A stretch of 64,000 nucleotides of DNA from contig BAABWY010000002.1 in NCBI GenBank assembly GCA_040367435.1, positions 310,001 through 374,000 of the forward strand, given 5' to 3'. Below are positions 4,033-58,469 of the stretch, in pieces. The DNA comes from Hyphomicrobiales bacterium 4NK60-0047b (GTDB lineage Bacteria > Pseudomonadota > Alphaproteobacteria > Rhizobiales > HXMU1428-3). Numbering within the stretch: position 1 is the stretch's first letter; each line of letters opens with the position of its first letter. The notes beneath the pieces are model-generated. The model saw only the letters and a program-made list of their open reading frames with translations. It made no database searches and had not been told where the DNA came from. The position numbers and the translations under genes were made by a program.

Positions 4033-4092
4033 GCGGATGCCCGCGACGGTTGCTGGTAGGCAACTGAAGGAGCATTTAAAAATCACCTGAAG
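4033..4092 (+). repeat. Short REP nested within a split short REP (tsaD-gpsA gap)
   Basis: The inner hairpin at 4043-4073 has arms GGTTGC and GCAAC around TGGTAG, followed by TGAAGGAGC. It is flanked by what looks like the 5' half (GCGGATGC, 4033-4040) and the 3' tail (ACCTGAAGC, about 4084-4092) of another copy. It belongs to the short REP family repeated from here to 63.9 kb. The outer copy is degenerate, so the nesting is an inference. Confidence 0.65.
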
Positions 4093-38292: not shown

Positions 38293-38324
38293 GGCGCGGT
38301 TGCTGATGGGCAACCTGAAGCGCC
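38293..38324 (+). repeat. Short REP joined to the 3' end of LSR copy C
   Basis: Outer arms GGCGC (38293-38297) and GCGCC (38320-38324), inner GGTTGC/GCAACC, loop TGATGG, bulge TGAA. It starts right after GAATAG-TAG and replaces the usual GCCGTGAGAGA of the large repeat. Confidence 0.9.
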
Positions 38325-43550: not shown

Positions 43551-43651
43551 GCGGCTGCTAGTGCGGATGCTCTGTGGGCATCTGAAGCAAAGAAAAGGCA
43601 ACCTGAAGCGCAACTAAAACAGCGCGGTTGCTGGTGGGCAACCTGAAGCGC
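43551..43651 (+). repeat. Array of short REPs, one split by another
   Basis: An outer copy starts GCGGCTGCTAG (43551-43561) and resumes GGCAACCTGAAGCGC (43597-43611). Inserted after its loop TAG is a complete second copy (43562-43589; TGC/GCA outer arms, GATGC/GCATC inner). A third complete copy follows at 43622-43651 (GCGC outer arms, GGTTGC/GCAACC inner). The tail GGCAACCTGAAGCGCAAC is therefore seen twice. Confidence 0.85.
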
Positions 43652-51107: not shown

Positions 51108-51575
51108 ATGCAAACTTATACAATACATGCCCCAATGGAAGATAGTCGCTCATTAGAAGAACGCGCACTAGACTATCAATTCATAAAAGAAGGCTTTTCA
51201 ATGTGGGCTGCACTTTTCGGCCCATTTTGGTTACTGATGAAAGGCATGTGGCTTGAAACTCTAGGTTATTTTCTGGCTGCCATCGGCTTGGGCTTAGCCC
51301 TGCAACTGTTAGGCTTCAATGAAGAAGCCATCTCAGCTTTCATATGGGTCGCGAATTTCATATTCGCTCTCTTCGCGCGCGATATTGAGCGTTTGCATTA
51401 TGAAAGAAGTGGGTTTAATTTAATCGGAGTGGTCAATGGCAAAACGAAAGATGAGTGCGAAGCCCGCTATTTTCGTTCATCTAATTTTCGTGTCTTAAAT
51501 CCAAATGAAAAAGATCAAAACAATCAAACTCAAATTCAGACAAACAATAATAATAAAGAGGTCTTAGAGACATGA
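51108..51575 (+). CDS. DUF2628 membrane protein
   Basis: A 155-residue protein. After MQTYTIHAPMEDSRSLEERA comes the DUF2628 core with FIKEGFSMWAALFGPFWLL, a helical hairpin in the membrane, and IWVANFIFALFARDIERLHY. The tail is Asn/Gln/Asp-rich. In Rhizobiales this gene stands between hisB and hisH, and it overlaps the start of hisH by 4 bp (ATGA). The start chosen (51108) comes right after LSR copy F, whose GAGAGAGA end is the only ribosome-site-like sequence. Confidence 0.85.
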   Translation: MQTYTIHAPMEDSRSLEERALDYQFIKEGFSMWAALFGPFWLLMKGMWLETLGYFLAAIGLGLALQLLGFNEEAISAFIWVANFIFALFARDIERLHYERSGFNLIGVVNGKTKDECEARYFRSSNFRVLNPNEKDQNNQTQIQTNNNNKEVLET

Positions 51576-52252
51576 CCTGTGTCATCATTGACTACGGCTC
51601 TGGCAATCTTCACTCCGCACTAAAATCTTTTGAACGAGCATCAAATGAAAGCGGTCTAAATAAATCCATCACCTTAAGCAACAAACCTGACGCTATCGCC
51701 AAAGCTGATCGCATCGTGTTGCCAGGCGTTGGCGCTTATGCAGATTGTCTAAGTGGCTTGGAGGCGATTGATGGTTTGAAAGACGCGCTTGAAGAAGCTG
51801 TGATTGAAAAGGGTCGCCCCTTTTTCGGCATTTGTGTTGGCATGCAGCTTATGAGCACTGAAGGCCATGAGTATAAAATCTCAAAAGGCCTAAACTGGAT
51901 CCCAGGTCTGGTCGAAGCCATTGAGCCAAACGACAAATCCTTAAAAATCCCCCACATGGGCTGGAACACGCTCTCTGTACGCCCCTTCAGTTGCCCACCA
52001 GCAACCGGGGCTGATACACATCCTGTTCTTAAAGACATCAAAACCGGTGAAGATGGCCTGCACGCTTATTTTGTCCATAGTTATCACTTCATACCAGATA
52101 ACCCAGCGCACATCTTAGCCACTACAGAGTATGGCGGCGAAATCACAGCCATGATCGCCAGAGATAATATGATCGGCACCCAGTTCCACCCAGAAAAATC
52201 TCAGACATTAGGCCTAAAACTGATCAGCAATTTCTTGCAGTGGAAGCCTTAA
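51572..52252 (+). CDS. hisH: HisH, glutamine amidotransferase subunit of IGP synthase, with a repeat-encoded insert
   Basis: A 226-residue class I amidotransferase that delivers ammonia to HisF. Catalytic Cys is in FFGICVGMQLM near residue 89, and the His-Glu pair is in GTQFHPEKSQ near 208. Between GWNTLSV and HPVLKDI, where relatives have only a few residues, there are about ten extra residues (RPFSCPPATGADT). Their DNA (51981-52011) is a short REP in reverse orientation. All catalytic motifs are intact, so the protein is probably functional. Confidence 0.95.
   Translation: MTCVIIDYGSGNLHSALKSFERASNESGLNKSITLSNKPDAIAKADRIVLPGVGAYADCLSGLEAIDGLKDALEEAVIEKGRPFFGICVGMQLMSTEGHEYKISKGLNWIPGLVEAIEPNDKSLKIPHMGWNTLSVRPFSCPPATGADTHPVLKDIKTGEDGLHAYFVHSYHFIPDNPAHILATTEYGGEITAMIARDNMIGTQFHPEKSQTLGLKLISNFLQWKP
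51981..52011 (-). repeat. Short REP inside the hisH coding sequence
   Basis: On the minus strand it reads GCCCC, GGTTGC, TGGTGG, GCAAC, TGAA, GGGGC. It differs from the intergenic copy at 58438-58469 by one substitution and one missing base. It is translated in frame as part of HisH. Confidence 0.92.
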
Positions 52253-57714: not shown

Positions 57715-57834
57715 TGCGGATGCTTAGCGCCGGTTTCTAGTGGGAAACCTGAAGGCTCATCAAAATGCGAGCAACCTGAAGCACAGAAAAGTGAATGTTT
57801 AGCAGCAGTTTCTAGAGAGTAATCGAAAGACACG
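57715..57834 (+). repeat. Short REP array after hisF, including a nested copy
   Basis: An outer 5' half (TGCGGATGCTTAG, 57715-57727) and an outer 3' part (GAGCAACCTGAAGCA, about 57769-57783) enclose a complete copy at 57729-57756 with changed but paired arms (GCC/GGC outer; GGTTTC/GAAACC inner; loop TAGTGG). A degenerate copy follows to about 57834. Confidence 0.8.
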
Positions 57835-57866: not shown

Positions 57867-58019
57867 CGAAGAAGGAGCTCAGCCATTTCCGGCCCTTCAG
57901 TTGCCCACCAGCAACTGGGTTACGGCTGAGGGACATGGCAGCAGAGCTGCCCGGCGCCTAGCGCCGCCTCTCGGAGGCCTATGAGCTTCGGCTCATAGAA
58001 TAGCCGTGAGAGAAAAGAG
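57867..58019 (+). repeat. LSR copy I with a short REP inside hairpin 1
   Basis: CGAAGAAGGAG, hairpin 1 CTCAGCC/GGCTGAG. Its loop is expanded by a reverse-oriented short REP (57893-57919, arms CAGTTGC/GCAACTG). Then come GGACATG, hairpin 2 GGCAGC/GCTGCC, hairpin 3 CGGCGC/GCGCCG, CTCGGAGG, hairpin 4 CTATGAGC/GCTCATAG, and GAATAGCCGTGAGAGAAAAGAG. Its 3' purines directly precede the hisE start codon at 58020. Confidence 0.93.
57893..57919 (-). repeat. Short REP nested in LSR copy I
   Basis: Reverse orientation; on the minus strand CCC, AGTTGC, TGGTGG, GCAACT, GAA, GGG. It lies in the loop of hairpin 1 and does not disturb the stem. Confidence 0.9.
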
Positions 58020-58387: not shown

Positions 58388-58416
58388 GCGCGGTTGCTAG
58401 TGGGCAACTGAAGCGC
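58388..58416 (+). repeat. Short REP between hisE and coaA (first)
   Basis: GCGC outer arms (58388-58391, 58413-58416), GGTTGC/GCAAC inner arms, loop TAGTGG, bulge TGAA. Preceded by GTA, so that GTAG stands at the foot of the hairpin. Confidence 0.92.
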
Positions 58417-58437: not shown

Positions 58438-58469
58438 GCCCCGGTTGCTAGTGGGCAACCTGAAGGGGC
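58438..58469 (+). repeat. Short REP between hisE and coaA (second)
   Basis: Outer arms GCCCC (58438-58442) and GGGGC (58465-58469), inner GGTTGC/GCAACC, loop TAGTGG, bulge TGAA. Close sister of the copy inside hisH. Confidence 0.93.

Follow-up and report, generated by a model that had tools for sequence, protein, structure and literature searches.

A REP-like hairpin repeat, nearly confined to one genus, lies in frame in the hisH gene of a Hyphomicrobiales bacterium

The window analysed here is a stretch of 64,000 nucleotides, positions 310001-374000 of contig C2 of Hyphomicrobiales bacterium 4NK60-0047b, the genome under study, which we term G000 among the eight same-genus genomes G000 to G007. 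It includes hisH, a short hairpin repeat that lies within the hisH reading frame, and further copies of the same repeat, which are given below in window coordinates with the kind of evidence in brackets.

51572-52252, + strand: hisH, glutamine amidotransferase subunit of imidazole glycerol phosphate synthase, 226 aa (ORF; Pfam GATase, 1.1e-19; the predicted model matches solved HisH, best Z 28.6)
51981-52011, - strand: hairpin-repeat copy in frame in hisH, with an outer stem of 5 bp, inner stem GGTTGC/GCAACT, loop TGGTGG and 3' bulge GAA (sequence; R1 model; DNA fold)
51980-52012, + strand: HisH codons 137-147 (RPFSCPPATGA), supplied by the repeat; predicted coil (translation; pLDDT)
58438-58469, + strand: intergenic long-form copy, the reference used in the first-pass annotation (sequence)
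58388-58416, + strand: intergenic short-form copy with a GCGC outer stem (sequence)
57732-57748, + strand: copy core with compensated inner stem GGTTTC/GAAACC (core search)
57900-57916, - strand: copy core in minority orientation, enclosed by a longer inverted repeat (core search)
43626-43642, + strand: long-form copy core (core search)
38298-38314, + strand: copy core, 1 mismatch (core search)
4048-4064, + strand: copy core, 1 mismatch (core search)

The hisH gene lies on the + strand and the repeat copy on the - strand, and the hisH frame stays open through the repeat. The covariance model of the family, R1, scores 52.7 bits for this gene at locus L031, and DNA folding of positions 51978-52011 gives -10 kcal/mol, with a z score of -3.41. 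The first-pass annotation described the 31 bp at 51981-52011 as a minus-strand match to the 32-bp repeat at 58438-58469, apart from one substitution and one lost base, and proposed that the one-base change had restored the reading frame. The match itself stands, with one substitution in the loop and one C fewer, but the reading of a lost base does not. Among 211 scored copies from the G000 sample short and long forms are about equally frequent (99 and 105 copies, with 7 of neither form), so that the hisH copy has lost nothing; it even has an intergenic twin, a copy in locus L017 that is spanned by no long ORF and is identical to it at 29 of 29 central bases. Nor was a frame restored by that base. 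The net gain of the HisH loop is 10 residues (31 versus 21, measured from KIPHMGWN to the AYFVHSY strand), or 30 bp for a 31-bp element, which points to trimming at the junctions and not to a frame-restoring deletion within the repeat. The repeat does encode most of the extra HisH stretch between GWNTLSV and HPVLKDI, as had been claimed, with codons 137-147 inside it and D148 and T149 outside.

Copies of the repeat share a common design, in which an inner stem GGTTGC/GCAACY encloses a loop TNGTGG and is followed by a 3' bulge of GAA or TGAA and a variable outer stem. The inner stem has 6 bp and the outer, on the far side of the bulge, up to 5 bp; the element is about 29-32 bp long. Its 17-base core occurs 377 times in the whole genome at up to two mismatches, compared with 2 occurrences of a reversed control, and 11 times in the window at up to three mismatches, where 0.34 are expected. 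Most of the counts below come from a G000 sample of 964,907 bases that holds 226 copies, 211 of them with no more than two mismatches; it was fetched partly around known copies and so is not random sequence. Searches of whole genomes with R1 scored about 150 candidates, and copies already known, the hisH one for example, are absent among the matches listed, so the counts from those searches are lower bounds. An A-rich tail is frequent, with AAAA no more than 14 bases from the foot in 148 of the 211 copies. Four or more contiguous outer pairs can form in 101 copies, and none or one in 74. A search of the window against Rfam returned nothing at gathering level.

Covariation in the stems was counted on short-form copies only (n=42), since mixed forms misalign at the one-base bulge. 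Pairing holds in 86.4% of the alignment cells overall, with 98.8% for the inner helix and 71.4% for the outer. The covariation score is 0.320, versus 0.110 in shuffled alignments and at most 0.086 in slid ones, while two of the five measures are not clearly above the shuffles (double-change pairs, 6 versus 4.8; further pair types, 20 versus 18.2). GC, CG, UA and AU pairs interchange at the same positions of the outer stem, and the inner stem has variants such as GGATGC/GCATC and GGTTTC/GAAAC. A group of 31 of the 211 copies sets GAC against GGAG in the outer stem, which would give tandem G.A / A.G mismatches in place of standard pairs.

The family is nearly genus-bound. All eight same-genus genomes carry the repeat, with 4 to 266 cores each at up to one mismatch; at the same threshold three of 33 other genomes have one core each, a level also reached by the reversed control. 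A search of the order with the covariance model, using stricter filters, yielded matches at E<=1e-4 in 9 of 199 genomes, of which seven belong to the genus and two to one other family, the latter with 1 and 3 matches.

A search for HisH gave a match in 38 of the 41 genomes. The identical 31 bp are present in frame at the same place in hisH of five of the eight same-genus genomes (G000, G003, G006, G002 and G007). The site was unreadable in two others, G005, where the gene ends at a contig edge, and G001, which gave no HisH match. In G004, the most distant same-genus HisH read, a different insert with no recognised repeat occupies the site. From KIPHMGWN to AYFVHSY there are 31 residues in G000 and G003, 44 in both G004 and G006, and 52 in G007. 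In G002 the sequence read stops before the AYFVHSY strand, so that loop length among carriers (31-52 residues) was measured in four. The same loop has 20-23 residues in all 24 other-family loci read, and 18, 21 or 24 in the best 80 of 590 named HisH loci, two sets that may overlap, the named collection being one that may omit near records. The residues encoded by the repeat are absent from all 24 other-family loci and from the best 80 of the 590 named ones, which answers the concern, raised with the original observation, that relatives lacking the repeat might share them.

Two of the carriers, G006 (L033) and G002 (L061), have a further palindrome adjoining the repeat in hisH, GTCAGCTA.CGCTGAC, with C-G as the outermost pair in G006 and T-A in G002. 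This palindrome was considered as a second dispersed family and ruled out, its other matches being at control level. In G007, hisH carries a second, degenerate copy of the repeat itself (24.1 bits).

The predicted HisH model has a mean pLDDT of 93.9, and residues 141-150, which average 67, are modelled as coil. The solved structures nearest to it are HisH proteins (7ac8_B, Z 28.6, rmsd 1.5, 197 residues aligned), and together with a match to PF00117 they place the protein among the class I amidotransferases. The insert begins 6 residues past W131. This residue is aligned with Thermotoga HisH W123, which PMC12828452 describes as an interface residue that touches R249 of HisF.

The proposed search for translated copies elsewhere was fruitful, yielding an ORF with the Pfam domain DUF3419, a cobN-type gene and the end of a ctaA-like gene. 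The DUF3419 ORF, which we take to encode BtaA, holds tandem in-frame arrays of two to three copies in G000, G003, G006 and G002. It was found in 16 of 41 genomes and scored in 15. Ten of these, same-genus G004 and G005 among them, show the short form free of any insert, and in G007 the site is occupied by a different insert in which no repeat was recognised. The model of BtaA is weaker than that of HisH (mean pLDDT 78.9, 13 sequences), and residues 289-321 fall below 50 between better-modelled parts, as does the N-terminus (1-28). The cobN-type gene (PF02514) was matched in 22 of 26 genomes; G002 and G006 have copies in it, and 13 of the 15 loci scored have none, five of those 13 being from the same genus. 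On contig C11 of G000 (L249:9041-10135) a COX15-CtaA protein (PF02628, with the domain ending at 340 of 364 residues) takes its final residues and its stop codon from repeat copies. The spacings between coding copies (48; 48 + 57; 45; 36 + 48 bp) are all multiples of three (n=6), compared with 9 of 73 for spacings shorter than 80 bp elsewhere in the sample, although the coding-copy spacings share ancestry and so are not independent.

Most copies lie between genes. In the long stretches of the sample 101 of 115 copies fall outside called ORFs and 14 overlap one. Sorted by eye, these 14 comprise one in hisH, two in btaA, one at the ctaA-like end, four with three mismatches that were taken as chance hits (C2:318702, C1:206590, C1:296659 and C7:178523), some of them presumably in decarboxylase-like or pyrF-like ORFs, and six in short unrecognised ORFs or in sequence 5' of the likely start (C6, C7 twice, C9 twice and C10). 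Copies in recognised genes, again as judged by eye, number 4 of 211 (hisH, btaA twice and the ctaA-like end). By a crude ORF call, 80% of these long stretches is coding, and copies in genes are therefore strongly under-represented. Immediately upstream of the probable cobN start, repeat-like sequence was also seen by eye in G001 (L306), where it has a model match, and in G004 (L307), both of them species with few copies.

It is very probable, in our judgement, that a genus-specific REP-like hairpin entered hisH and was kept as an in-frame flexible loop, in an enzyme that still works as far as the sequence tells. The element would have inserted in an ancestor of G000, G003, G006, G002 and G007 and been retained there because it fell in a loop linking two core strands and left the frame intact, and HisH would have gained about 10 residues with no apparent loss of function. 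After insertion, in-frame tandem copies may have been gained or lost, and old inserts may decay into unrecognisable loops. The HisH, BtaA and CobN proteins with inserts are probably functional, because their frames are open and conservation extends on both sides of the insert and across species; the insert itself appears to be close to neutral. The suggestion that this family can write new protein segments without destroying an amidotransferase is on the whole supported.

Between G000 and G007 all 31 bases inside the repeat are identical, compared with 71% identity in hisH outside the repeat and 48% at third positions there, and only 2 of 614 windows of equal length outside the repeat are fully identical. 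Simple neutral decay does not predict such identity. That it persists despite a third-position difference of 52% points to gene conversion, later re-insertion or selection on the hairpin, each of which fits these two sequences alike.

The non-repeat inserts at the hisH site of G004 and at the btaA site of G007 suggest that loop growth may predate the repeat. It is a real possibility, if a somewhat improbable one, that the loop was first lengthened by unrelated DNA and that the repeat was later inserted, or gene-converted, onto a loop already dispensable, at a site that is a hotspot for any insert. The 44-residue loop of G004, the most distant HisH read in the genus, is of the kind expected from such a history, as are the other palindrome of G006 and G002 and the second repeat of G007 beside the hisH copy, and recent copying would account for the identity of G000 and G007. 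The G004 insert could, however, be a decayed repeat, and for btaA and cobN the empty state is seen directly in same-genus species. Domestication of the hisH copy, with selection on the mRNA or DNA hairpin or on the encoded peptide, for example through the tuning of mRNA stability or translation, we regard as unlikely. The preservation of 31 of 31 bases in so diverged a gene and the z score of the DNA fold are what it would predict, but gene conversion from the many genomic copies gives equal conservation, the loop is a coil of lower confidence, and G004 manages without the repeat.

Orientation of the copies is strongly biased. In the G000 sample 212 of 226 copies lie in the majority orientation of their own contig, the majority being read from the same data, and the hisH copy is one of the 14 in the minority. 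G003 has the same per-contig polarity among the matches listed, with five exceptions by count. All 70 of the neighbouring pairs less than 100 bp apart have the same orientation, head to tail. Polarity as a by-product of gene direction was judged insufficient, since the upstream neighbour is co-oriented with the repeat in 65 of 97 cases and the downstream neighbour in 53 of 97, yet each contig has an almost constant polarity. When third-position G-C skew is compared between + and - strand genes, the sign of the difference fits repeat orientation in 12 of 12 contigs (C1-C12 of 26, with C10 resting on one copy). Agreement with polarity is seen in 6 of the 12 for raw GC skew and in 3 for intergenic skew, and a link of repeat polarity to replication is therefore suggestive only; the intergenic disagreement could stem from unmasked degenerate G-rich copies. 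The GGTTGC strand of the repeat coincides with the C-rich strand of the contig, the one that is usually lagging-like.

The best reading of the family is that it is REP-like in the broad sense and works like the Rickettsia palindromic elements (RPEs). Its 377 cores, the location of 101 of 115 copies outside called ORFs and its covariation (0.320 versus 0.110 shuffled) are those of a REP broadly defined, and the hisH, btaA and cobN inserts are in frame and absent from outside homologues, in the manner of RPEs. It is set apart here from known families by comparison with their published descriptions. The parallel with Rickettsia drawn in the first-pass annotation is sound, in that PMC3767692 reports RPEs inserted in frame in genes, in solvent-exposed parts of proteins, with some orthologues that have an insert at the same site but no typical repeat. 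RPEs and Wolbachia palindromic elements are likewise alphaproteobacterial palindromes in frame in genes, and the non-repeat inserts of G004 and G007 have their counterpart there. Compared by size and habit only, RPEs differ in being described as 100-150 bp long (PMC3767692), against about 29-32 bp for the present repeat, which is also nearly genus-bound and mostly outside genes.

The CGTC REPs, found mainly in alphaproteobacteria, resemble the repeat as short palindromes without a dedicated transposase for which intragenic copies are known (PMC3733652), and the same source equates RPE-4 and RPE-6 with CGTC repeats. They have a stem of 8-9 bp and a loop of 4-5 (PMC3733652), whereas here a GAA/TGAA bulge splits a 6-bp stem from one of up to 5 bp, none of the 211 copies has CGTC at its foot on either strand, and neighbours run head to tail, an arrangement that PMC3733652 calls negligible for CGTC repeats. 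GTAG REPs and REPINs share with the repeat high copy number and imperfect intergenic hairpins, and in-frame insertion in genes has been reported (PMC6006769; PMC3733652, for REPs of several species). The present family differs in having no tag consensus (GTAG or GTGG lies at the hairpin foot in 6 of 211 copies on the upper strand and 38 of 211 on the lower), no opposed doublets (0 of 70 neighbouring pairs under 100 bp) and no Y1 transposase match in G000. PF01797, at E<=0.001, had no match in G000 or in six of the seven other same-genus genomes, all drafts in which a gene could have been missed, compared with matches in 5 of 14 control genomes. G003 alone of the eight has two Y1-type transposase genes (L317 and L318; C1:11499-15370). 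An R1 search of these two loci found no repeat copy, so that no RAYT gene flanked by repeats was seen in G003 or, for lack of a Y1 match, in G000. The results on tag, pair orientation and transposase place the family with neither the GTAG nor the CGTC REPs.

It is very unlikely that these are classical REPs moved by a RAYT (Y1) transposase now or formerly in the genome. Short imperfect hairpins in hundreds of copies, the 38 of 211 tagged lower-strand feet and the two Y1 genes of G003 would suit such an origin, but it has to contend with the lack of a PF01797 match in seven of eight same-genus drafts, even allowing for a missed gene, with Y1 loci free of the repeat, with the absence of a tag consensus and with the uniform orientation of all 70 neighbouring pairs. 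That the hisH match is a chance or convergent coding sequence is scarcely credible, as nothing was found in its favour and the 31 bp have an intergenic twin, share a family-wide structure and are absent from the comparators read outside the genus.

Two other systems bear on the arrangement of the copies. In Pseudomonas fluorescens SBW25 a few head-to-tail REP arrays are reported to have opposite orientation on opposite sides of the chromosome (PMC3116915); polarity there concerns a few arrays and here extends across dispersed copies. IS200/IS605 elements have imperfect subterminal hairpins, comparable to the hairpins seen here, and their insertion is tied to the lagging-strand template (PMC6006769), but for the present repeat no transposase was found and there is no defined target tetranucleotide, and it is far too short for a whole insertion sequence. 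The traits that set the family apart are the polarity of its dispersed copies, its head-to-tail arrays and its stem covariation.

The repeat may spread through single-stranded DNA in a manner tied to replication. This more weakly held step is suggested by a polarity that follows gene strand skew and by a structure that is conserved while the sequence of the outer stem is free. As a tentative and rather doubtful extension, non-autonomous hairpins might insert at the replication fork by way of single-stranded DNA, with no Y1 transposase involved. Fork-linked polarity and strict head-to-tail arrays would follow from this, and the hairpins would repeatedly write themselves into the loops of core enzymes, there to expand and shrink in frame-preserving units. 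Strand polarity without a known transposase raises a testable question of how such repeats move. In-frame palindromic inserts first became prominent in Rickettsia, an intracellular parasite, and here they occur in a genome of 3.5 Mb that has a cluster of histidine genes. The empty, single-copy and tandem states found across sister species offer a direct series for repeats turning into protein segments and perhaps then decaying.

Some copies are enclosed by a larger inverted repeat (about ATGTCC.TCAGCC ... GGCTGA), itself present in both orientations, as at 57870-57935 of the window and at C1:710825, C1:1135106 and C3:234424. By eye, 3 of the 10 minority copies with up to two mismatches sit in this larger inverted repeat.
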